From: a virus
Virus record (IMG/VR): IMGVR_UViG_3300021077_000003
Span: 1-30,984 of that record
Length of the DNA: 30,984 nt
Direction: 5' to 3' (one strand)
A model generated the notes under the pieces. That model was not told where the DNA came from, searched no databases, and saw nothing but the letters and a program-made list of their open reading frames with translations. The position numbers and the translations under genes are program-made. Shown here piece after piece: positions 4,039 through 28,989 of this stretch (positions are counted from its first letter, which is position 1; the number at the start of each line of letters is the position of its first letter).

Positions 4039-5520
4039 TTATGGTTTGTAGTGAAGACCTAAGTGTTTGATTTTGTCTGGAAATTTTCGTTCTCCTTTAA
4101 GATAAATCAAAAGATTACTAGAAGATATTTCAAGTTCTCTAGAACATTCTTTAGCAGACACCCAAAATCTTCCAGAATTATCATAAACAATTTTTTTAGG
4201 ATTGTCTTGTTTAATCTTTTCTAATATTTGCTCAGGAGTTTTCGAAATATAATTTATATCATCAGCATAATGTAAATCTAAGTAATATAAATCTTTTCTT
4301 GTTTTTAATTTGCCAGTTAACGTAGATGTTAAATCTGATGTATTCATTTTTAAGTCTTTAGCAGCTTCACCAATCGATCCCCAAATTCTTCCAGTATTGT
4401 CGGCAACTTTTCTTGCTCTTGGTGATTCTCCTCCTCTATAAACAATTCTTTCTATTTCATTATATTCTTTTTCTAATTCTTCTTTATTTTTGTTTATATG
4501 TTCTTTATTTGTATAGTGTAAATCTAAACAATACAAATCTTTTCTAAATCTAATTCTTCCAGATAACATAGAACATAGGTTATTATATTGTATTTTTAAT
4601 TCTTTTGCAGCATCTTCTACATATTCCCAAAATCTTCCATCATTACTAGCAACATGATATTTCTCTAATTCTTTTTCATTGTAATATTTTTCAATTTCAT
4701 CTATTGGTTTTGGTATATAATTTTCGGAAAATATATGAAAATCTAATAATGCCAAGGCTTTTGGAAAATCTAAAGTTCCATTCATCATATTATAAAATGT
4801 TGATGGAACAATATTATATCTTCTAGCGACATCTATAATACAACCTAAACTATTTCCATATCTATCAAATACTTCTTTATTGTTTGGCGTATTCATTCCT
4901 TTATATTCTATTTTTGATAATCGTTCCAATTCGTCTATAGGTTTTGGGACCCAATATATATCATCTTCATAATGTAAATCTAAATGAACTATAGTTCTAC
5001 TCATTGGTTTTAAACCACCAAGCATGTCATGAAAATGCGATTTTATTCCTAACGCATCTGCACATTCTTTTACACAACTCCAGATTCTTCCTGTATTGTC
5101 GGCAACTTTTCTAGCATTGTAATTATTTCCACCTAATCTCCAGGCACCATCTTTTTGTTTCCAAGGATTTTTATCAGAATTCGCATGCGCCTTCCATTTT
5201 TCTTTAGATGAATCATAATCTTGAAAAAATTGCCCACCACCATCACAATTATAGCCATTTCTATTTTGTATGGTTGAATCTAATTCCTTTATATATTTTA
5301 TTTCCAATTCATCTAATCTTTCAGGAACACATTCTTCTAAAATATCAAATGAAAAATTTTCAAATCTATATTTTTTAATAGCTTTATGAAAAGGACAATC
5401 ATCATTAAAATGACTATGTGATTTATATCTTTTCCAAACATCATTGCTTTGTCCAATATATAATTTTCCGTTAATATTATTCGTAAATTTATATATTCCA
5501 CATATTTTCTTTTTAGCCAT
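4039..5520 (-). CDS. GIY-YIG homing endonuclease with five C-terminal DNA-recognition repeats
   Basis: This 493-aa protein begins with a GIY-YIG nuclease domain: CGIYKF at residues 7-12, YIGQS at 21-25, a basic DVWKRYKSH region with the likely catalytic Arg31, and ELEIKYIKEL with a likely catalytic Glu. The rest is a tandem array of five related modules of about 47 aa (about 138-184, 217-263, 289-336, 371-418 and 444-491). Each reads roughly VxDNxGRxW, a helix-turn-helix-like stretch, then LDLHY, and resembles IENR1/NUMOD1 units. The gene lies between gp21 and gp22, both of which are intact, so it is a free-standing insertion and not intron-borne. It has its own sigma70-type promoter and an AAGGAG site. 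It probably cuts a related phage's gp21-gp22 interval to spread (inference). Confidence 0.92.
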   Translation of the reverse strand: MAKKKICGIYKFTNNINGKLYIGQSNDVWKRYKSHSHFNDDCPFHKAIKKYRFENFSFDILEECVPERLDELEIKYIKELDSTIQNRNGYNCDGGGQFFQDYDSSKEKWKAHANSDKNPWKQKDGAWRLGGNNYNARKVADNTGRIWSCVKECADALGIKSHFHDMLGGLKPMSRTIVHLDLHYEDDIYWVPKPIDELERLSKIEYKGMNTPNNKEVFDRYGNSLGCIIDVARRYNIVPSTFYNMMNGTLDFPKALALLDFHIFSENYIPKPIDEIEKYYNEKELEKYHVASNDGRFWEYVEDAAKELKIQYNNLCSMLSGRIRFRKDLYCLDLHYTNKEHINKNKEELEKEYNEIERIVYRGGESPRARKVADNTGRIWGSIGEAAKDLKMNTSDLTSTLTGKLKTRKDLYYLDLHYADDINYISKTPEQILEKIKQDNPKKIVYDNSGRFWVSAKECSRELEISSSNLLIYLKGERKFPDKIKHLGLHYKP

Positions 5521-5546: not shown

Positions 5547-5575
5547 ATTTTATCATATTTAATCTTAATAGTCAA
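5547..5575 (-). promoter_or_regulatory. Sigma70-type early promoter of the GIY-YIG gene
   Basis: On the minus strand, TTGACT (5570-5575), a 17-nt spacer and TAAAAT (5547-5552) form a promoter with an extended -10 TG. The spacer ends in AGATTAAATATGA, the same 13 bases as in the promoter of gp46 at 27174-27202. It starts directly after the gp21 terminator. Confidence 0.8.
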
Positions 5576-14373: not shown

Positions 14374-17300
14374 TTAAGACTGAACAATAATGTTTGAATT
14401 AAATTGATTACCATTAACGATATTTATGACCACAACATTATTGGTAGATAAATTGTATTTAACATCTGGAAGTATTTCCACATTATTTGTAAAGTCAAAC
14501 ATAAAAACATTAACATACCGATAATTGAGATTGTGTGTAGCAGACAACAAATAAGACGTTGCTGAAATTATAGCTGATGTCGTATATGTTTTATGGTCAG
14601 TTAATCCAGTATTTGCAAAAAGTTTTCCTTGAGAATCAATTTGTATGTATCCACTAGTTGATGCTGTAGTTGTTATTGGAGGCGTTAAATATAAAAGACC
14701 GGCGAATATAGTTGTTCCAGAAATGTTTAGATTTCCAGGAGTAGATAAAGTTCCACCGCTTAATGGAAGATAAAGACTTAATCCAGATAAAGAAGGTATT
14801 GCCGAAATTTGAACATACTTATTATTAAATAAAGTATCCGAACTTGTGATTCCATATCCGGAAAGTGTTGTAGGTGTTCCAGAAATTTGAGACCATGGTA
14901 AAGTCCCAATCGCCGAAATATATGGAAGACTAGGAATATCACCGCTAGTTAAAGTAGTTCCTGAGATAACTCTTCCGAAAGGGTCTGTAGAAATTTTCGG
15001 AAATGTTCCAGATGTTCCAAACGGAGAAAGGTTTACTAGAATATTTCCTGAAGTTGTTATAGGAGTATTCGAAATTGTTAATGTGGTGGAGGCAATACCG
15101 ACACTTGAAACACTTCCTCCTCCAGAACCACCAGGAAATTGAATAGCCACATTAGATGCGGATATTATCCTTCCTTTAGCATCGACTTGAAATTGAGAAA
15201 CCGAAATGTTGTTTCCATAGATTCCTGAAGAAACTCCGGTAGCAGAAAGAACAGAAACTAAAGAAACTCCACCTGTGCCATTGAAAGAAATATTCGCCGA
15301 TGAAACATCACCGACGATATTAAAGTTCTGAGAGATAGTTAATTGATTAGCTTGATTCGCCGTTCCAGAAAGGTTTCCGAAATGTGTTCCTGAAATATTA
15401 GTTGCCGATACGAATGGAGAGACCAATCCACCAGTCATAATATCACCAGAAACGGTTACATATCTATTAACTAGAAGCTGTCCGCCTTCATAAAAATTGC
15501 TTGCGGAAATGTTCGGAACAGATATGCTTCCAGTTAATGCCCCACCAGATAATGGAAGATATGCCGAGGTAAATCCGAATAATGCGGAGGATGCTAATTT
15601 ATTTGCATCTAAATTTTGTAATGCTGTTTGAACATTTGTTGCCGTAATACTTCCACTCGGAGTAAAATTTATTTGAGTTGCCGAATAGTCTCCAGAAACC
15701 GGAAATACGGAACCATTTCTACCATTCCAAGTATAGATTGAGTCGGTGTTATCTATTTTGTCCCAAGTAATCCCATTAGAGACTATCCAATCCCCAACCT
15801 GAAAATATGGAAGACCAGCAAAAGAATCAGCCGAAATTATAATAGATGTGGCAGAACTAAAACCACCAGTTGGAATAGAACTTCCTGAAATTTGTGTTAT
15901 ATAATACCCACCAGATACAGCAGACGCAGCCGGTAAAGTGGTTCCAGAAGAAGCGTTCCAAGTTCCTAAATAATGAACTTGACCAAATAGTGAAGATGGT
16001 AAAAATGATGTAGGAACTTTTGCTGTAGAATCTAAAGGAGCTACGCCATTAGCTGTTCCTGAAAGTGTGGTAGAAATATACAGAGTAGACAAAGAAGGTA
16101 TATCAGAAACGATTAAAGTAGCTCCTGATATTACCCTACCAAAAGTATCTGATTGAATCTTTGTATATACTCCACTGGTTCCAACGGGCGAAAGATTTAC
16201 CGAAATATTTCCAGAAGTTGTAACCGGAGTTAATCCAATTGTTAAAGTGGTTGACGAAATACCTACAGAAGAAACCGAACCATAATTTAATGACGGAATA
16301 ACAGACAAATATGGAAGAACCGGAATATCTCCAGAAGTTAAAGTAGTCCCGGAAATAACGCGGCCTTTCGAATCCGTTTGAACTTTAGTATATATGCCAG
16401 ATGTCCCAACCGCAGAAAGTGTTGAAGAAAGTATTACGGATCCAGTTCCATTAAAAGAAATATTTGAAGCTACTATATCACCGACTATTCCAAAATTTTG
16501 AGAATTTAATAATTGGTTTGCAGTAAGACTTTGTAAAGATACTCCAGAAAGATTTCCGAAATGTGTTCCAGAAATATTAGTTGCCGATATGTTAGTTCCT
16601 GTTAATGGTCCAGTTAATGTTCCACCGCTTAAAGGAAGATACAAAGAAATGTTGGGAAGGGTCGAAATCTGAGCATATTTGTTATTAAATAAAGCGTCGG
16701 CGGAAACTATCCCATATCCGGAAAGTGTTGTAGGTGTTCCGGAAATTTGAGACCACGGAAGAGTTCCTATAGCAGAAAGATATGGGAGAACCGGAATATC
16801 TCCAGAAGTTAAAGTAGTTCCTGAAATAACTCTTCCATAAGGATCAGAAGAAATCTTTGTATATGTTCCAGATGTTCCAAATAAAGAAAGATTTACAGAA
16901 ATATTTCCGGAAGTTGTTATAGGAGAGCCACCGACAGATAATGTGGTTGAAGCAACACCTACAGACGAAACGGAACCACCACCAGAACCTCCAGGGAATT
17001 GAATAGCCACATTAGATGCAGAAATTATTCTTCCTTTAGAATCTACTTGAAATTGTGAAACTGTAATATTATTTCCATATATTCCGGAAATTACACCAGT
17101 TGCAGATAATACGGAATTTAGTGTTACTGAAGATGTTCCGTTGAAGGAAATATTTGCGGCGGATACATCTCCGACAATGTTAAAATTCTGAGAGATTGTT
17201 AACTGATTTGATTGGTTCGCTGTTCCAGAAAGATTTCCGAAATGTGTTCCAGAAATATTATTGGCAGATATGTTGGTTCCTGTTAATGGTCCAGTTAATG

Positions 17301-20300
17301 TTCCACCACTTAAAGGAAGATACAGAGATAATCCAGACAAAGACGGGATTGCTGAGATTTGAGCATACTTGTTATTAAATAAAACATCCCCGGAAACAAT
17401 TCCATACCCAGAAAGAGTTGTAGGAGTTCCGGAAATTTGAGACCATGGTAAAGTCCCGATTGCGGAAATATAAGGAAGAACCGGAATATCTCCAGAGGTT
17501 AAAGTAGTTCCTGAAATAACTCTTCCATAAGGATCTGAAGAAATTTTTGTAAATGTTCCAGATGTTCCAAAAGGACTTAAATTAGCAGTTAAAACTCCAG
17601 AAGACGTGACAGGAGAACCAGCTATTGTCAACGTGGTTGATGTTAATCCTACAGAGGTTACGGTTCCTGTTCCTGAAGAGCCAGCACCAGAAATATTTAC
17701 GAAAGACGCATTCAAAATTCTTCCGAAAGAATCTATATTTAATACTGGAATTTGTGTAGTTGTTCCATAAGAACCAGGAGTTACACCAGTGGCAGAAAGA
17801 TTTACGGAAATGTTTCCAGAAGTTGTTACAGGACTTAACCCAACAGTTAATGTCGTGGAAGATACTCCGACGGAAGAAACTGAACCACCAGATCCCCCAG
17901 GGAATTGAATTGCCACATTTGATGCAGAAATAATTCTTCCTTTAGAATCTACTTGAAATTGAGATACATTAGTTCCATTTCCAAAAATTCCAGGAGTTAC
18001 GCCAGTTGCCGAAAGAACAGAATTAAAAGTAACTGAAGATGTTCCGTTGAAGGAAATATTTGCAGCAGATACATCACCAGTTATTCCAAAATTTTGCGGA
18101 ATAGTTAATTGGTTAGATTGGTTGGCCGTGCCTGAAAGATTTCCAAAATGTGTTCCTGAAATGTTCTGACCAGATAAATTTCCAGTTAAAGATCCGCCAC
18201 TTAAAGGAAGATATAAAGATAATCCAGACAAAGACGGGATTGCAGAAATTTGAGCATACTTATTATTAAATAAAGTATCTCCAGAAACTATTCCATATCC
18301 AGAAAGCGTTATAGGTGTTCCTGAAATTTGAGACCAGGACAAAGTCCCAATCGCTGAAATATATGGAAGACTAGGAATATCGGCACTTACTAATGTCGTT
18401 CCGGAAATAACTCTTCCATAAGTATCGGTCTGAACTTTTACATAAACTCCACTAGTTCCAATGGGAGAAAGATTTACAGAAATATTTCCTGAAGTCGTTA
18501 TAGGACTTGAACCTACATTTAGAGTGGTTGAAGCAATACCGACACTTGAAACACTTCCTCCTCCTGAACCTCCAGGAAATTGAATAGCCACATTAGATGC
18601 TGAAATTATTCTTCCTTTAGAATCAACTTGAAATTGAGAAACTGTTGTAGAATTTCCGTAAATTCCCGAGACTACTCCAGTGGCAGGAAGAACAGAATTT
18701 AATACAACACCAGAAGTTCCATTAAAAGAAATATTTACAGCGGATACGTCACCGATTATTCCAAAATTCTGAGGAGTAGTTAATAGATTAGCTTGGGTAG
18801 AAGTGCCAGAAAGATTTCCAAAATGTATCCCAGAAATGTTCTGACCAGATAAATTTCCTGTTAATGTTCCACCACTCAAAGGAAGATACAAAGATAATCC
18901 AGATAAAGAAGGTATTGCCGAAATTTGAGCATATTTGTTATTAAAAAGCTGGTCTGAACTCGTTATTCCATAACCAGATAATGTTGTAGGAGTTCCAGAA
19001 ATTTGAGACCATTGTAAAGTCCCAATTGCGGAAATATATGGAAGAACTGGAATGTCAGCAGATGTTAAAGTTGTTCCGGAAATTACTCTACCAAAGGTAT
19101 CAGTTTGAACTTTAATATATACACCGCTTACACCAGTCGCTGAAAGGTTTACGGAAATGCTTCCTGATGTGGTGATTGGACTTAATCCAATTATCAGGGT
19201 TGTTGAAGATACACCTACTGAAGATACGGAACCGTAATTTAATGATGGAATCGCTGATAGATATTTTTTATCAAATAGTGTATCAGAACTTGTGATTCCG
19301 TATCCGGACAAAGTTGTCGGCGTTCCAGAAATTCTAGACCAAGCCAATGACGCAGAAATAGCATCATATGGAAGTTGAGGAATATCTCCCGAAGTTAAAG
19401 TTGTTCCTGAAATAACCCTGCCATAAGGATCCGAAGATATTTTAGAAAAAGTTCCGGATGTTCCAAACGAATTCAAATTTACCGAAATATTTCCCGAAGA
19501 TGTTATAGGACTTGAACCTACATTTAATGTATTTGAAGTAATTCCTACTGAAGTAACTGTTCCAGAAGTAGTAGGAATTTGTACAGAAACATAAGACGCA
19601 GATAAAATTCTTCCTTTAGAATCTATTACTAATTGTGGTATTTGATTTGAACTTCCATACGACCCAGCAGACACTCCAGTTGCAGAAAGAATAGAATTTA
19701 ATATTACTCCCGACGTTCCATTAAAAGAAACGTTTGCGGCAGATATATCACCAATTATAGAAAAATTTTGAGAAGTAGCTAATTTAATTGTTTGTAAAGA
19801 TGTTCCTGAAGATGGAAGATAATTTAATAAAGGTATGTCAGCACTTGTTAAAAGACTTCCGGAAAGAACTCTACCAAAACTATCTATAACTATTTTTTCA
19901 TAAATTCCTGGAGTAGATACCGCAGAAAGATTTACATTTATATTTCCAGCGACAGTTATTGGAGTATTTGAAATCGTTAATGTTGTTGAAGAAACCCCAA
20001 CAGACGTAACAGTTCCGGTTCCACTTGTTCCCGAACCTCCGGAAATTGTAACAACACTTGCAGAAACAATTCTCCCAAAACTATCTACAATTATTTGAGG
20101 AATTTGTGTAGAAGACCCATACAATCCAGGAACGACGCCAGTTGCCGAAAGATTTACAGAAACATTTCTAGAAGATGTAGATAAAACCGATAATGAAGTT
20201 GAAGAAACATTTAATACAGTTTGTCCAGGATAGAATTCAAAATATCCAGTCGCACTTGGAGAATATAAAATTCTATTATTATCTAAATCAAAAACTAAAG

Positions 20301-20379
20301 AATTTGTCCTAATATTTGCATTAAGATTTGTTCTAGTGTCTTGCTTATAATATATTCTACCTTGGATAGCAGATGTCAT
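14374..20379 (-). CDS. Giant repetitive fibre protein
   Basis: A 2001-aa fibre protein made mostly of repeating beta-rich modules. Recurrent segments are TVTSVGxSSTTLxxxxxPIT, TTSGNISVNLSATG, QFQVDSKGRIISASNVAIQF (four close copies), SQISGTPTTLSGYGI (six copies), YLPLSGGTLTG and GTHFGNLSGT. One segment (about 1400-1560, with VHYLGTWNASSGTTLP and YTWNGRNGSVFPVSGDYSA) is a module known from tail-fibre proteins. The unique N-terminus (MTSAIQGRIYYKQDTRTNLN) probably attaches the protein, and a unique C-terminal 90 residues (TDHKTYTTSAIISATSYLLS and on) may be the tip. An AAGGATAA site and a CATAAATA promoter precede it. It lies between neck gene 14 and the portal, where T4 has tail genes. Confidence 0.88.
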   Translation of the reverse strand: MTSAIQGRIYYKQDTRTNLNANIRTNSLVFDLDNNRILYSPSATGYFEFYPGQTVLNVSSTSLSVLSTSSRNVSVNLSATGVVPGLYGSSTQIPQIIVDSFGRIVSASVVTISGGSGTSGTGTVTSVGVSSTTLTISNTPITVAGNINVNLSAVSTPGIYEKIVIDSFGRVLSGSLLTSADIPLLNYLPSSGTSLQTIKLATSQNFSIIGDISAANVSFNGTSGVILNSILSATGVSAGSYGSSNQIPQLVIDSKGRILSASYVSVQIPTTSGTVTSVGITSNTLNVGSSPITSSGNISVNLNSFGTSGTFSKISSDPYGRVISGTTLTSGDIPQLPYDAISASLAWSRISGTPTTLSGYGITSSDTLFDKKYLSAIPSLNYGSVSSVGVSSTTLIIGLSPITTSGSISVNLSATGVSGVYIKVQTDTFGRVISGTTLTSADIPVLPYISAIGTLQWSQISGTPTTLSGYGITSSDQLFNNKYAQISAIPSLSGLSLYLPLSGGTLTGNLSGQNISGIHFGNLSGTSTQANLLTTPQNFGIIGDVSAVNISFNGTSGVVLNSVLPATGVVSGIYGNSTTVSQFQVDSKGRIISASNVAIQFPGGSGGGSVSSVGIASTTLNVGSSPITTSGNISVNLSPIGTSGVYVKVQTDTYGRVISGTTLVSADIPSLPYISAIGTLSWSQISGTPITLSGYGIVSGDTLFNNKYAQISAIPSLSGLSLYLPLSGGSLTGNLSGQNISGTHFGNLSGTANQSNQLTIPQNFGITGDVSAANISFNGTSSVTFNSVLSATGVTPGIFGNGTNVSQFQVDSKGRIISASNVAIQFPGGSGGSVSSVGVSSTTLTVGLSPVTTSGNISVNLSATGVTPGSYGTTTQIPVLNIDSFGRILNASFVNISGAGSSGTGTVTSVGLTSTTLTIAGSPVTSSGVLTANLSPFGTSGTFTKISSDPYGRVISGTTLTSGDIPVLPYISAIGTLPWSQISGTPTTLSGYGIVSGDVLFNNKYAQISAIPSLSGLSLYLPLSGGTLTGPLTGTNISANNISGTHFGNLSGTANQSNQLTISQNFNIVGDVSAANISFNGTSSVTLNSVLSATGVISGIYGNNITVSQFQVDSKGRIISASNVAIQFPGGSGGGSVSSVGVASTTLSVGGSPITTSGNISVNLSLFGTSGTYTKISSDPYGRVISGTTLTSGDIPVLPYLSAIGTLPWSQISGTPTTLSGYGIVSADALFNNKYAQISTLPNISLYLPLSGGTLTGPLTGTNISATNISGTHFGNLSGVSLQSLTANQLLNSQNFGIVGDIVASNISFNGTGSVILSSTLSAVGTSGIYTKVQTDSKGRVISGTTLTSGDIPVLPYLSVIPSLNYGSVSSVGISSTTLTIGLTPVTTSGNISVNLSPVGTSGVYTKIQSDTFGRVISGATLIVSDIPSLSTLYISTTLSGTANGVAPLDSTAKVPTSFLPSSLFGQVHYLGTWNASSGTTLPAASAVSGGYYITQISGSSIPTGGFSSATSIIISADSFAGLPYFQVGDWIVSNGITWDKIDNTDSIYTWNGRNGSVFPVSGDYSATQINFTPSGSITATNVQTALQNLDANKLASSALFGFTSAYLPLSGGALTGSISVPNISASNFYEGGQLLVNRYVTVSGDIMTGGLVSPFVSATNISGTHFGNLSGTANQANQLTISQNFNIVGDVSSANISFNGTGGVSLVSVLSATGVSSGIYGNNISVSQFQVDAKGRIISASNVAIQFPGGSGGGSVSSVGIASTTLTISNTPITTSGNILVNLSPFGTSGTFPKISTDPFGRVISGTTLTSGDIPSLPYISAIGTLPWSQISGTPTTLSGYGITSSDTLFNNKYVQISAIPSLSGLSLYLPLSGGTLSTPGNLNISGTTIFAGLLYLTPPITTTASTSGYIQIDSQGKLFANTGLTDHKTYTTSAIISATSYLLSATHNLNYRYVNVFMFDFTNNVEILPDVKYNLSTNNVVVINIVNGNQFNSNIIVQS
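14720..19800 (-). repeat. Coding tandem repeats of the 2001-aa fibre gene
   Basis: Imperfect in-frame repeats of about 670-1180 bp. The GNLSGT-encoding word recurs near 15371, 16551, 17231, 18141 and 18811, and the QFPGG-encoding word near 15131, 16993, 17902 and 18573. Spacing varies by whole modules, consistent with expansion and shuffling by recombination. Confidence 0.85.
15377..15488 (-). repeat. Module shared by both fibre genes (copy 2)
   Basis: Second copy of the 112-bp module at 12281-12392, in the same orientation and frame. The surrounding sequences also share the QFQVD and GNLSGT repeats but at lower identity. Confidence 0.85.
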
Positions 20380-21789: not shown

Positions 21790-23271
21790 CTATATATTTA
21801 TTGTTTCATTGGTATAGTCAAACTGTTGTTCCTCATAATAATGAAGCCTGTTATTTTTCCAATGATTATAACAGAAATTATTATAAGTTTTTTTTCCATC
21901 AGAATAACGGCAATCATCCACCACATCATGTATTGTTACATATTCTTTCGATTCATGTTTTCGCAAACCTCTTCCAATGCTTTGTAAAATTTTAATCTGA
22001 GATTTGTAAGAAGAGAATAACACAATATGATGCAATTTTTTTACGGAAACGCCTGTAGAAAAGGTTCCGTAAGAGGCGACTAAAATAGATCCGGATTCGT
22101 TTTCTAAACCTTTCCGAATATTTTCTCTAACGTCTGCCTCAGTCTTTCCGTAAATTTCATGAACAACTTTTCCAGGAAACTTTTTCTCTAGGTATATCTT
22201 AATATTTCTTAAATGTTCTATCTTAGTCACAAGTATCAAAATATTATCAGTATCTTTAGAATTTTTAACAATATGGTCTAAAGCCAAATTTCTGTTAGCA
22301 TATGAATTTATATCATCTACTTCTTTTTGATAAGAACTTCTAGCGTGCTTCATTTCAGGAGGGTATCTAAGAATCAAATTTTTAATCTTAATTTGAGAAA
22401 TTATTCCTTTATCTATCAATTCTTTCGACATAACTTTATGAATAACTGGACCAAGATATCCTACAACTGTATTAAAATCTGCTTCATTATCCGGCATAGA
22501 ACCAGTCAAACCGATTCTAAATTTTGCTCTAGAACATTTCTTACCAATTTCCGAAATAGATTTTCCTTGCATCTGGTGACATTCATCTACAATTAACGCA
22601 TCATACTTTTCGAAAAATCTCTCATCATTTTTGTAAACACTTTGCCATGTAGTTATTAAAACATTCTTAGATAGGTCTAGAATCTTTCCTCCATAATTCA
22701 AACAAACATTATCTAAAACATTATTCCAGGAGTAGTCATTCTTAAAATCAGAGTAAAGCTGTTCTACCAAAGATATAGAAGGAACTATCAAAATTACTTT
22801 CTTTCCTTTAGCTATCAAATATCTCACTAAAGAATATATTATTAAAGATTTTCCAGAAGATGTAGCAAGATTTAATACACCTCTTCCGAAAGTTATAGCT
22901 CTAGATATTGCTTCTATTTGGTGGTCATATGGAAAAATATTTACAGAAGGTGGGAAAACTACTTCTAAAAACTTTTGCAAAAACTCTTCGGAAACCTTTT
23001 CTCCAAACTCTGATACCTTAAATTCTAATACAGGCTCGTAAGAATAACTTTCACAAAATTTTAGAAACTTTGATAGAAGACCAATTGGAAATAAACCATC
23101 TCTTGTGAGGAAAGAAATTCGACCTGTCCATTGTCCTATACGATACGACGGGCTGAACTTATAATCCTTTGCGTAAAATTCCATTAAAGGTTTCAATTCA
23201 TTATATTGAGACTTATCTAAATCCGCTTGAAGAAAAACTTCCGAAAACTTTCTTACATGTATCTTGTCCAT
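21790..23271 (-). CDS. uvsW: UvsW-like RNA-DNA/recombination helicase
   Basis: This 493-aa SF2 helicase corresponds to T4 UvsW (503 aa), which unwinds R-loops, branched DNA and stalled forks and helps shut off origin-primed replication. Motifs seen: an N-terminal UvsW-specific domain (1-110), Q-like FPYDHQIEA (113-121), Walker A ATSSGKS (136-142), Walker B DECH (229-232), RIGLTGS motif III (252-258) and motif VI QSIGRGLRKH (about 434-443). The start codon has no Shine-Dalgarno site. A GATAAATA element ends 6 nt before it, so the messenger may be leaderless. Confidence 0.96.
   Translation of the reverse strand: MDKIHVRKFSEVFLQADLDKSQYNELKPLMEFYAKDYKFSPSYRIGQWTGRISFLTRDGLFPIGLLSKFLKFCESYSYEPVLEFKVSEFGEKVSEEFLQKFLEVVFPPSVNIFPYDHQIEAISRAITFGRGVLNLATSSGKSLIIYSLVRYLIAKGKKVILIVPSISLVEQLYSDFKNDYSWNNVLDNVCLNYGGKILDLSKNVLITTWQSVYKNDERFFEKYDALIVDECHQMQGKSISEIGKKCSRAKFRIGLTGSMPDNEADFNTVVGYLGPVIHKVMSKELIDKGIISQIKIKNLILRYPPEMKHARSSYQKEVDDINSYANRNLALDHIVKNSKDTDNILILVTKIEHLRNIKIYLEKKFPGKVVHEIYGKTEADVRENIRKGLENESGSILVASYGTFSTGVSVKKLHHIVLFSSYKSQIKILQSIGRGLRKHESKEYVTIHDVVDDCRYSDGKKTYNNFCYNHWKNNRLHYYEEQQFDYTNETINI
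21795..21802 (-). promoter_or_regulatory. Late-type promoter AATAAATA before the gp14 operon
   Basis: AATAAATA on the minus strand lies 20 nt upstream of the 167-aa gene, overlapping the last codons of uvsW. It is one base from TATAAATA. It would start the 167-aa gene, gp14 and 91-aa gene unit. Confidence 0.5.
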
Positions 23272-24372: not shown

Positions 24373-24379
24373 AAAGTTT

Positions 24380-24416
24380 ATCAAAAAGAAAAGGCCCAAC
24401 TTTCGAAGAGCCTTTT
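24380..24416 (-). terminator. Rho-independent terminator after the 174-aa gene
   Basis: On the minus strand AAAAGGC pairs with GCCTTTT around a 14-nt loop, followed by CTTTTT. It starts about 20 nt after the 174-aa gene. Confidence 0.8.
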
Positions 24417-25256: not shown

Positions 25257-25264
25257 TATTTATC
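25257..25264 (-). promoter_or_regulatory. Late-type promoter GATAAATA directly before the 101-aa gene
   Basis: GATAAATA on the minus strand ends 5 nt before the ATG, overlapping the uvsY stop codon. With T4 spacing, transcription would begin on the start codon. Confidence 0.5.
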
Positions 25265-25676
25265 AGAAATCCAAACCAGCTTTGAAACGCATATGAGCAA
25301 TTGAATTTTTAATTTGGAAACCAAGGTCTCTAAAATTTTGTAGAGTGTTTTCGAGATATATTACAACTTCTTCTTGAAAATTTATTTCTTTACAAATATT
25401 GAAGAATCTTGGGTCTTTGTGCATTTGAGACTCAATCTCATCCCGCTTCTCTCTTCTGATATCTGAGTGAAATTTAATTTTATCATAAAGTTCTGCATAG
25501 AGGACTTCTTTATCGAGCCGTAGATCCTTCAATTTAGTTGTTTCCTTAGTGAATATGTCTAGATAGAAACATCTCTTAATGACTAACTCTTGAAGTTTAG
25601 ATTGAATAGAATCTTCATTGAAAGTCAGTTCCTTTTCTATCAATGGTTTCAATTTTTGAAGTTCAAGTTTAGTCAT
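25263..25676 (-). CDS. uvsY: UvsY-like recombination mediator
   Basis: The protein has 137 aa, the same length as T4 UvsY, and shares its layout: a charged helical N-terminus, a Lys-rich middle and a C-terminal segment NFRDLGFQIKNSIAHMRFKA followed by GLDF. That tail parallels T4 UvsY SRGFAIKHIQDMRAFEAG. UvsY helps load the UvsX recombinase on gp32-coated DNA. The gene is preceded by AGAGGAA and a late-like GCTAAATA, and further away by an early-type promoter at 26580-26608. Neighbours UvsW and gp46/gp47 belong to the same recombination pathway, and uvsY and uvsW are also adjacent in T4. Confidence 0.88.
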   Translation of the reverse strand: MTKLELQKLKPLIEKELTFNEDSIQSKLQELVIKRCFYLDIFTKETTKLKDLRLDKEVLYAELYDKIKFHSDIRREKRDEIESQMHKDPRFFNICKEINFQEEVVIYLENTLQNFRDLGFQIKNSIAHMRFKAGLDF

Positions 25677-25697
25677 GAATTAAATTTCCTCTATAGT

Positions 25698-25705
25698 TAT
25701 TTAGC
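25698..25705 (-). promoter_or_regulatory. Weak late-type promoter GCTAAATA of uvsY
   Basis: GCTAAATA on the minus strand lies 21 nt upstream of uvsY with AGAGGAA between. It keeps the TAAATA core only. Confidence 0.35.
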
Positions 25706-25761
25706 TTTGAAGTTAATGATGAACCGTGATTTTTAAGATTAAATTGCTGTTAATTCTAATT

Positions 25762-25830
25762 CAATAAAAGTAATTGAAATGGAGACCGTAGGGAGCCATT
25801 TCTGAGTCCGAAGGACGAACTTTAATATTG
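25762..25830. ncRNA. Predicted three-way-junction RNA in the uvsY leader
   Basis: Three stems close in 69 nt. Outer stem: 25762-25770 with 25820-25830 (nine pairs, AA bulge). Second: GAAATGG 25776-25782 with CCATTTC 25796-25802. Third: GTCC 25806-25809 with GGAC 25813-25816. Both strands can fold so. Read on the plus strand the CTGA, stem and GAA order recalls a hammerhead core, but the second half of the CUGAUGA element is missing. Likely transcription is on the minus strand, ahead of uvsY, where a regulatory leader fits best. Confidence 0.4.
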
Positions 25831-26175
25831 TGATTAAGTTTTTTCTAAAAATGATAATTTCAAAATGAGCATAATTATTCATTGTTTAGAAAGTTTGAAC
25901 CGTATGAATTAAAAATGGTTCGATTGAATTATAATTTTCTTATTGAAGATAGATTTAATTACAATGGTTCTATAGGTTCGAATTTATAGAAATCTTTAAC
26001 TTCAATAGATTGTGATTTATATTTTCTAAAAACTTTACTTCAATATGGTTCAATGCAGTTCAATTTATAATTATTTTTCTAGAAAGTTTAATTACAATTC
26101 TGTTCATGGTCTTTCAGTCAATCTCGTTCCTCGATTGAATCGCTTCGCTCAAGTCCTTTCTAATTCATGGTTCCG

Positions 26176-26205
26176 TTTCAGTTCAGTTCAATTCAGTTCA
26201 ATTCA
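26176..26205. repeat. Six tandem NTTCA units
   Basis: TTTCA, GTTCA, GTTCA, ATTCA, GTTCA, ATTCA in direct succession. Related GTTCAAT words recur leftwards in the same gene-free interval. Confidence 0.8.
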
Positions 26206-26228
26206 ACTTTCGAAAAATTTCTGACAGA

Positions 26229-26247
26229 CCCACCCTAAATCCCTCCC
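26229..26247 (-). other. G-quadruplex motif
   Basis: On the minus strand GGGAGGGATTTAGGGTGGG has four G-triplets with loops of 1, 5 and 1 nt, the canonical intramolecular pattern. It lies about 330 nt downstream of the early-type promoter and on its nontemplate strand. Confidence 0.75.
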
Positions 26248-26579
26248 AAAAAACATAAAAATTTTTAGAAGACAATTTAAGGAATATCTAGACCCAAGAA
26301 ATGTTTTACTCTTTTTATTTGAAATCCTAGAAAATAAATTATAAGAATTTCAAACTTGCAAGAAACGTAAACCGTAACATTTCTTCGAAGATTCTCTCAT
26401 TTCTTTAACAATTTTATTCTTCCATTTCTCCAGAAGACTTATTATTTGTTAGAGGCTTTCTTTTGGTCTTTTTTTCAGAGCCAACACCTTATTGAGAAAC
26501 TTCTACCCAAACCATTTTCAGATTTGTGTTTTAGAAAACTTTTCAGAAACATTTTCCGATAATTTTCTTCAACTTTTTC

Positions 26580-26608
26580 ATCATATCATCTTTAATCTCA
26601 TGTGTCAA
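26580..26608 (-). promoter_or_regulatory. Sigma70-type early promoter firing into the gene-free region
   Basis: On the minus strand TTGACA (26603-26608), a 17-nt spacer and TATGAT (26580-26585) with an extended -10 TG. The spacer ends in AGATTAAAGATGA, one base from the spacers of the gp46 and GIY-YIG promoters. The -35 box overlaps the last codons of the HNH gene. The first real gene downstream is uvsY, about 900 nt away. Confidence 0.8.
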
Positions 26609-27083
26609 GGTGTTTTTCAAGATAAATGTATCCGTTCATTCTCTTATTTAATCTTCTTCTCATAGTAGTATCTGGTATGTTCATTTCGATACATGCCAAG
26701 CAAACACTTTCGAAAATTCTATCATATATTTTTACAGGACGACTTTTCCAATTTAATTTACCAGTATTAAAAAATGCATTCTTAATTCTTAACTGTTCAT
26801 ATTCTTTAGAACTTAATTTTATTCTTTGTTGATTTTCGGAAGAACTTAGAGACATTTTATGATAGCCCATGAACAAACTTTTATTTTCAGGATAGGCTTT
26901 TGATAATAATTTATGTGCAAGAAAATGTTCTCTAGCAGTTAACAATACCATATTTTCTTTTTTATTAGACCCACCCAAACACTTAGGAATGATGTGATGG
27001 TTTTCTAAATAGTCTGAGCCTTTCTTTCGGTTTTGTTCCTTGGCATGTTCTATCAGTTTATTGTAGAGCTTCAAGTATGTCAT
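26598..27083 (-). CDS. HNH homing endonuclease, 161 aa
   Basis: The HNH core NHHIIPKCLGGSNKKENMVL, then EHFLAHKLL, lies at about residues 28-60. A C-terminal NUMOD1-like helix-turn-helix follows (about 117-155, FESVCLACIEMNIPDTTMRR). The first 80 or so residues are clearly homologous to the HNH protein at 647-1309, while the C-termini differ, suggesting the same nuclease with a swapped recognition part. It sits in the divergent interval between the uvsY leader and gp46. No Shine-Dalgarno site is present; a CATAAATA ends 6 nt before the ATG. Confidence 0.9.
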   Translation of the reverse strand: MTYLKLYNKLIEHAKEQNRKKGSDYLENHHIIPKCLGGSNKKENMVLLTAREHFLAHKLLSKAYPENKSLFMGYHKMSLSSSENQQRIKLSSKEYEQLRIKNAFFNTGKLNWKSRPVKIYDRIFESVCLACIEMNIPDTTMRRRLNKRMNGYIYLEKHLDT

Positions 27084-27173: not shown

Positions 27174-27202
27174 TTGACAATGGAGATTAAATATGATACA
27201 AT
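27174..27202 (+). promoter_or_regulatory. Sigma70-type early promoter of the gp46-gp55-gp47 operon
   Basis: TTGACA (27174-27179), 17-nt spacer, TACAAT (27197-27202) with TG one base before. The spacer ends in AGATTAAATATGA, shared with the GIY-YIG promoter. A second TATAAT follows at 27208-27213. The start codon of gp46 is at 27229. Confidence 0.85.
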
Positions 27203-27228: not shown

Positions 27229-28989
27229 ATGTATGTTCGCGTAAATTATCAAATTGTAAAGAACTTCCTTAGTTATGGAAATTCTGAAACTAAGTTAGAA
27301 TTTGAACCAGGGCTTTCTTTGGTGACTGCTAAAAATGGAGGTGGAAAGTCTACTCTGTTTTTAGATGCAGTTTCTTACAACCTTTACGGAAAGCCTTATA
27401 GAAATATTAAAATAGCAGAACTCGTAAACCGTAAAAATGGTAAAGGATTGTATACAGAAGGTTCTTACACAATTGACGGAAAAGACACTTATAGAATTAT
27501 TAGAACATATGCTCCACAAAAATTAGAGATTTATAAGAATGAAGAAACGGTTCCTTTAGAATCAGCTTCTTCGAAAAAATTGGACCAAGATGAAATCACA
27601 ACTTTAATAGGAATCAATTACGATATTTTCAAACTTGTAATTGCAATAGCCACTTCTACAAATCCTCCATTCCTTTCTTTAGGACTTCCAGAAAAACGTA
27701 AAGTAATGGAGTCTATATTTTCTATAAACATTTTCGGAGAGATGCTTTCAAAAGCTCGGAAGAAACTAAACACTACAAAAACTGACAAGACTATCTATCA
27801 AAATAATGTAAAGAATTTGGAAAGTCTTTTAAAAACATTGAATTCTCAGATTAAAGAAATAGATGATTCAATTAAAGATTTTGATTCTAAGAAAGACGAA
27901 GAAATCAAGGCATTAAAGATTAGAAAAGAATCTGTAGAAAGAGATATTAAAGAACTTTCCGAAAAACTTAAGGAAATGTTATCTATCAAAATTGAATTAG
28001 ATAAGAATGATTATGTATCTGAACAAATTAAAATAGATACTGATATAAAAGTTTCCGAAGCTAAGATTAAAGAGAATAAAACACAAATAAAGTTTTTAGA
28101 AAAGAATACTGAATGTCCTCTTTGCAAACATGAGTTAACAGAAGAACATAAGAAAGAAGAGTTGAAAAAATTAAATGATAACAATACTAAACTTCAAACA
28201 AAGATTGACGGGTTGAAGAAAAAACTTTCGGAAATTCTTTTGAAAATTACTAAGCAAAAAGAAATTAAAAAACTTTCCGAAGAAACTAATTCAAATGTTT
28301 CTATGACAAATTTGAAGATTAAAAATTTAGAAAAGAATAAGAAAGACTTGGAAAAACAAATTAAAAATGCGGAAGAAAGAGTTTTTAATTTAGACTCTAC
28401 AAACATTAAGAAAGAGTTTGAAGAAAAGAAAAAGACTTATAAAGAATATGCGGAAATTTTCGAAAACCTTTCTAAAGAAATGAAGAAGCTTGAAATGGTT
28501 GTTAAGATGCTTTCCGAAGAAGGCATTAAAAGTTATTTCTTCAAAAGGTTGGTTCCTGTTCTCAACTCTAAGATAAACGAACAACTAAATATATTTGATC
28601 TTCCAGTTGTGATAAATTTTAACGAAAACATGGAAGAGTCTATAGATATTGTAGGTTCATCTGAGAAGGGAGTTTCTTACATGAGTTTTTCTGAAGGTGA
28701 GAAGAAACGTATAGACATTGCAATTCTTCTTTCCTTTATAAGCACTATGAAAACTATTTCTAATTGGAATTGTAATCTTCTAGTGTTTGATGAAATTCTT
28801 GATTCCGCCACTGATGCTGATGGTTTAGAGAGGTTGTTAGGGTCTATTAAAGAAATTACTTTGAAAGATTCTAACATTTGTTCTTATGTAGTTTCTCATC
28901 GTGAGTCTATGCAAGATTTATATGATAGAGTTATTGAGATAAAGAAAGTGAATGGGTTTTCAAAAGTTGATGTAAAAACAAATGGCTAA
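27229..28989 (+). CDS. 46: Recombination endonuclease subunit gp46 (Rad50-like ATPase)
   Basis: This 586-aa SMC-type protein corresponds to T4 gp46 (560 aa). It has Walker A AKNGGGKST (34-42), two long coiled-coil arms around a zinc hook CPLC (Cys296 and Cys299), the ABC signature SFSEGEKKR (about 486-494) and Walker B LLVFDE with Asp521-Glu522. With gp47 it resects double-strand ends for recombination-dependent replication and degrades host DNA. GAGAGA lies upstream. The 3' end overlaps gp55 by 8 nt, so the three genes form one operon. Confidence 0.97.
   Translation: MYVRVNYQIVKNFLSYGNSETKLEFEPGLSLVTAKNGGGKSTLFLDAVSYNLYGKPYRNIKIAELVNRKNGKGLYTEGSYTIDGKDTYRIIRTYAPQKLEIYKNEETVPLESASSKKLDQDEITTLIGINYDIFKLVIAIATSTNPPFLSLGLPEKRKVMESIFSINIFGEMLSKARKKLNTTKTDKTIYQNNVKNLESLLKTLNSQIKEIDDSIKDFDSKKDEEIKALKIRKESVERDIKELSEKLKEMLSIKIELDKNDYVSEQIKIDTDIKVSEAKIKENKTQIKFLEKNTECPLCKHELTEEHKKEELKKLNDNNTKLQTKIDGLKKKLSEILLKITKQKEIKKLSEETNSNVSMTNLKIKNLEKNKKDLEKQIKNAEERVFNLDSTNIKKEFEEKKKTYKEYAEIFENLSKEMKKLEMVVKMLSEEGIKSYFFKRLVPVLNSKINEQLNIFDLPVVINFNENMEESIDIVGSSEKGVSYMSFSEGEKKRIDIAILLSFISTMKTISNWNCNLLVFDEILDSATDADGLERLLGSIKEITLKDSNICSYVVSHRESMQDLYDRVIEIKKVNGFSKVDVKTNG

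Follow-up and report, generated by a model that had tools for sequence, protein, structure and literature searches.

The non-coding gap between the divergent genes gp46 and uvsY may act, in an uncultured clade of T4-like phages, as an origin-like control locus, a reading that comparison among sequences places at about an even chance, and positions 25677-26608 of the DNA analysed here would be the version of this locus carried by one member. That DNA, called the window below, is a 30,984-base viral metagenome record of a T4-like phage, in which homologues of gp23, gp22, gp21, gp20, uvsW, uvsY, gp46, gp55, and gp47 were recognised. The candidate origin is supported circumstantially, and the reading gains this support because the address is conserved at a strand switch near a GC-skew minimum and because iterated palindromes occur there in many members. 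The choice of start sites in T4-like phages is known in detail for T4 only. A syntenic gap that can be compared over about 30 loci, with repeats that vary while the address, the strand switch, and the skew stay, amounts to a natural experiment on the requirements of an origin, and it gives a place to seek origins in uncultured phages from sequence alone. In GenBank, the closest matches to gp46 of the clade were cyanophage proteins, with ~34% identity over three quarters of the protein; the sole match to uvsY was in Synechococcus phage Bellamy (24% identity), and no phage with either protein above ~34% identity was found. Therefore, no cultured member was usable for comparison, and the clade appears, as far as GenBank matches to gp46 and uvsY can tell, to consist of uncultured phages.

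In the window, 921 gene-free bases (25677-26597), read on the minus strand as a candidate origin or uvsY leader, lie between the gene for the recombination mediator UvsY (25263-25676, minus strand; PHROG 231, E 4e-11) and an HNH homing endonuclease gene (26598-27083, minus strand; PHROG 655, mobE-like). The latter gene is inserted between the interval and gp46 (27229-28989, plus strand), which encodes an SbcC-like recombination nuclease subunit. The initial annotation had described a gene-free stretch of about 900 bp in a uvsY/uvsW neighbourhood, and both points hold, the uvsW-like helicase gene lying at 21790-23271 on the minus strand; the separation from gp46 by the HNH gene was absent from it. 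The largest open reading frame of the interval has 59 aa, and four relatives show single-base indels and changes in repeat length, so that no part of it looks coding and a coding gene was rejected; no tRNA was found. Its GC content is 28%, versus 34% in the whole window, and its most AT-rich 100 bp (25981-26080, 19% GC), which rank in the lowest 0.2% of the window and lie ~500 bp downstream of the leftward promoter, may serve as an unwinding element. A TAAATA word just before uvsY (25697-25704, minus strand), which is similar to words at other gene starts in the window, is probably late-promoter-like.

The leftward promoter (26608-26580, minus strand) is of the early, sigma-70 type with an extended -10 element (TTGACA-17-TATGAT with TGn). 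It has 11 of the 12 consensus bases, matches the consensus at both hexamers, as an early promoter would, and is the best leftward site within 23.2-27.4 kb; the strong early-type promoter that had been proposed to fire into the interval is thus borne out as a sequence match. A divergent early promoter of gp46 (27174-27202, plus strand) shares the spacer word GAGATTAAANATG with it, and both promoters are kept in four close relatives. Another early-type promoter, at 5575 on the minus strand beside a GIY-YIG homing endonuclease gene (4039-5520, between the scaffold and protease genes), resembles those at 26608 and 27174.

The G-quadruplex motif GGGAGGGATTTAGGGTGGG (26229-26247, minus strand), on the nontemplate strand of the predicted leftward transcript as initially claimed, is the sole such motif in the window and in a 57-kb relative, and none of 200 shuffles of the window contains one. 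An exact-match search for the motif was set aside: it returned one unrelated contig (L015), which has the motif in a different context. The repeated GAACCAT words are equally real, with four copies on the minus strand (26167-26173, 26045-26051, 25964-25970, and 25915-25921) and two inverted GAACCGT, whereas 500 shuffles contain GAACCAT 0.10 times on average and at most twice, and none reaches four. Short direct repeats of the TTGAACTGAA type occupy 26177-26207 (minus strand). An 81-bp block (26100-26180, minus strand) is identical in all close relatives and contains the 11-mer GAGCGAAGCGA at 26140-26150. Two hairpins with a 7-bp stem and a UUCG-type loop (25776-25816, minus strand; fold z -3.3), lie ~120 nt before uvsY and were absent from the initial annotation.

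The interval is also present, 92-99% identical, in four close relatives (L002-L005), among which single bases are gained or lost and the TTGAACTGAA-type repeats vary in number. A comparison of the layout among related phages had been suggested; the promoter, the quadruplex, which is invariant in all five close phages, and the first two GAACCAT words are conserved, but not the third and fourth, which read GGACCAT in three relatives and GAGCCAT in L002, respectively. In L003 and L004, the 140 bp nearest to uvsY diverge by 28%. These two phages also have ~0.9 kb between genes (7295-8190 in L003) where the window has a few bases (24378-24383), on the uvsW side of uvsY. Sequence conservation among the five phages is confounded by recombination and was unusable as proof of function: at four-fold sites, neighbouring uvsY shows few or no differences either, and identity rises and falls abruptly along the contigs, as recombination would produce, so that they look mosaic.

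Evidence beyond the close group comes from loci collected by gp46 alignments down to ~28% identity. Among the 33 loci in which gp46 is at least 34% identical to that of L029 and ~0.4-3 kb of upstream DNA is present, uvsY is divergent from gp46 in 31, across a gap of ~300-2500 bases, and in L117 and L119 it was not found within 3 kb of gp46. The larger gaps contain inserted genes. At loci below ~31% gp46 identity, uvsY was not found upstream of gp46; in many of them a gene the size of gp47 stands immediately upstream with the same orientation, as in cyanophages, and distant T4-like and cyanophage loci are without the divergent gp46/uvsY arrangement. In the inner subclade, the non-coding part of the gap follows a common plan of gp46 promoter, AT-rich stretch often with TATAAATA, repeat array, GC-rich hairpin, and uvsY. 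The arrays comprise direct and palindromic repeats particular to each lineage, such as tandem copies of ~26 bp containing CCTAGGCCTAG in L029, TGACCGGTCA palindromes in L026, CTAGGTACCTAG in L032, and TACTAGATTCTAGAA repeats in L103, and many of the palindromes in relatives are perfect and loopless. Outer members L104, L105, L106, L108, and L110 have a gene of ~560 aa between uvsY and gp46, and the protein of L104, the one member examined, has a weak, sub-threshold match to a primase C-terminal domain (PriCT-2).

Scored against dinucleotide shuffles, repeat coverage of the gap gives z values of 2.4-7.0 for most members of the inner subclade (7.0 in L086, 6.8 in L087, 6.5 in L094, 6.2 in L089, and 4.9 in L032) and z 3.2 in the window, a value attained by none of 200 shuffles; the excess was not seen in the outer relatives L102, L104, L105, and L108. 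When every gap of ≥180 bp in a record was ranked for palindromes, the locus came first of 52, 59, and 23 in G001, G002, and G003, respectively, and third of six in G004, a close relative of the window. Therefore, the palindrome signature belongs to the relatives, and the lineage of the window has a longer interval that is without their palindromes and bears irregular GAACCAT/TTGAAC words. The 11-mer GAGCGAAGCGA, the core of a very stable DNA mini-hairpin, recurs in the gap of two distant members, L031 (twice, 473-509) and L158 (2156-2166), and elsewhere among the loci searched for it in L035/L036 only. The GCGAAGC core reaches 0.90 per kb in the gaps, against 0.00-0.15 per kb in the remaining non-coding DNA of four records, and its density in the gaps is more than 10 times that of the entire records; this enrichment is left as an observation because such hairpins can also be terminators. 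Upstream of gp46 in L031 (1-890) there are two near-identical copies of ~100 bp and several GCGAAGC hairpins.

In eleven records of 25-264 kb, the gap also marks precisely the point at which a long run of leftward genes adjoins a long run of rightward ones. The pattern was seen in G001-G004, in which a minimum of the binned cumulative GC-skew profile falls within a few kb of the gap, and seven further records were collected to test it. All seven have the gap at the junction, and the cumulative GC-skew minimum of the whole record is located in the gap itself in three (G008, G010, and G014) and ~0.8 kb or less away from it in the other four (G009, G011, G012, and G013). The runs on either side number 46 and 44 genes in G001, 3 and 55 in G008, 22 and 10 in G009, 12 and 28 in G011, and 14 and 10 in G014. 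A strand switch with a shift in nucleotide bias, as would be expected of phage origins in general, is present in eleven records and confounded with gene direction; for this reason GC skew was rejected as an independent proof of an origin, and skews at third positions and in non-coding DNA did not cleanly separate the effects of replication from those of gene direction.

Divergent transcription alone would give both the strand switch and the skew shift, as the strongest rival explanation holds. According to this rival, which we regard as quite possible, the gap serves only to regulate the divergent genes gp46 and uvsY: it is composed of promoters and a long, repeat-bearing 5′ leader of uvsY, its repeats and hairpins act on the transcription or translation of these recombination genes, and no replication starts in it. 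This rival agrees with the presence of a gp46 promoter within the gap in nearly all members, with a stable hairpin that many members have no more than ~125 nt from uvsY, and with the failure to find an intrinsic terminator or terminator-like site between the leftward promoter and uvsY. However, the perfect loopless palindromes of the relatives suit recognition as DNA better than RNA hairpins, the leader in the window has no overall signal of RNA structure, and a leader of ~900 nt is long for a phage gene.

An origin in the gap can be compared with known ones. T4 oriE, oriF, and oriG lie at a transcription strand switch with a shift in nucleotide bias; oriE combines 12-nt iterons with an early-mode promoter, oriF and oriG, which act through an R-loop, contain both a MotA middle promoter and an AT-rich unwinding element, and UvsW, which is made late, unwinds the R-loops at T4 origins, while the role of the iterons of T4 itself is described as ill defined (PMC3016281). 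In the annotation of the T4 record, oriF is a rep_origin at the 5′ edge of uvsY, and its primer RNA is given as the uvsY transcript. The candidate resembles oriF, or ori(uvsY), in its location at the 5′ edge of uvsY, its predicted priming transcript toward uvsY, the AT-rich DNA downstream of the promoter, the neighbourhood of a strand switch, and the nearby uvsW-like helicase gene. It differs from oriF in that the latter needs ~100 bp, has a MotA middle promoter, and occupies the short spacer that follows gene 25, whereas here an interval of 900 bp with an early-type promoter faces gp46. With oriE it shares an early-mode promoter, as judged by consensus match, a strand switch with bias shift, and, in relatives of the inner subclade, iterons at the syntenic place, but the gene neighbourhood differs, and the evenly spaced 12-mers of oriE correspond to lineage-specific palindromes of various lengths in the clade and to irregular words in the window. 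The locus seems to fit neither T4 oriF nor oriE fully. Extrachromosomal mycobacterial prophages have RNA-based origins, and the likeness to these, which is one of description, lies in a transcribed non-coding region without an initiator gene that is needed there for replication; unlike the phage of the window, they are temperate and have the origin next to parABS (PMC7157519).

If the gap is an origin, the host RNA polymerase would start near 26573 early in infection and transcribe leftward toward uvsY, across the G-rich and then the AT-rich, repeat-bearing part of the interval. The duplex would be opened in the AT-rich part either by a transcript that stays hybridised as an R-loop, in the manner of T4 oriF, or by the binding of a phage protein to the repeats, a mode suggested for T4 oriE; forks would then leave along the two divergently transcribed arms. 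We infer that the transcript is made and that replication starts here, and the choice between the two modes of opening is likewise conjectural. The R-loop version, which was the form of origin initially proposed beside uvsY, finds limited support in the sequence. The nontemplate strand is purine-rich, which counts for it, and the predicted stability of the RNA-DNA hybrid, computed with nearest-neighbour values, is modestly high, ranking among the highest 3% over 100 bp around the quadruplex and being ordinary over 300 bp. Across the clade this mechanism is not supported, because most iteron-bearing relatives lack the leftward early promoter, which is found by consensus match in the lineage of the window, L094, and L095, because the quadruplex and the GAACCAT words are seen in the lineage of the window only, and because the palindromes are lacking in the window. 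The more general proposal of a replication origin beside uvsY retains the address, the strand switch, the skew, and the palindromes of the relatives, but the lineage of the window does not share the palindrome signal, and no initiator protein was found. As the repeats range from CTAG-rich tandem repeats through ACCGGT palindromes and GATC palindromes to GAACCAT words, one could tentatively suppose that the clade keeps a fixed origin address while the repeats turn over completely, with either a fast co-evolving initiator or a sequence-independent mode of opening. The latter would need palindromes and AT-rich DNA; this joint reading as a whole is somewhat doubtful.

Apart from the candidate origin, the interval might encode a phage non-coding RNA transcribed from the promoter at 26608, which is improbable. 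The strong promoter, the lack of an open reading frame, and the high identity among close relatives suit such an RNA, as does a 7-bp stem in L003 at the same place as in the window despite different stem bases. This stem was not counted as compensatory because of the gap placement of the alignment program, which missed it, so that the likeness rests on two separate folds; the compensatory pairs counted in the alignment number zero. In addition, Rfam gave no match at gathering score and three weak, implausible ones at a relaxed threshold, the full-length fold has z -1.5, no 120-nt stretch on either strand falls below z -2.6 or lower than controls, and the sequence of the interval is not conserved outside the close group. 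A known RNA family or a large structured RNA was therefore rejected.

Finally, a functionless scar left by mobile elements, through insertion of a homing endonuclease and degeneration of genes, is very improbable, since relatives without an insert retain a non-coding gap of 300-400 bp with repeats and large parts of the interval are 95-100% identical where the HNH gene of relatives has drifted to 88-94%, even though that HNH gene abuts the interval, other genes are inserted in the same gap of L033, L087, L095, and L099, and there are several homing genes, together with a transposase fragment, in the window. This fragment (1-642; PHROG 506) lies at the contig edge beside the capsid region. The HNH gene at 26598-27083 has a relative of the same family (PHROG 655, mobE-like) at 647-1309, adjoining gp23, and the two share ~117 bp at ~74% identity. 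The window also encodes a protein of 2001 aa (14374-20379) that is built of many diverged internal repeats.
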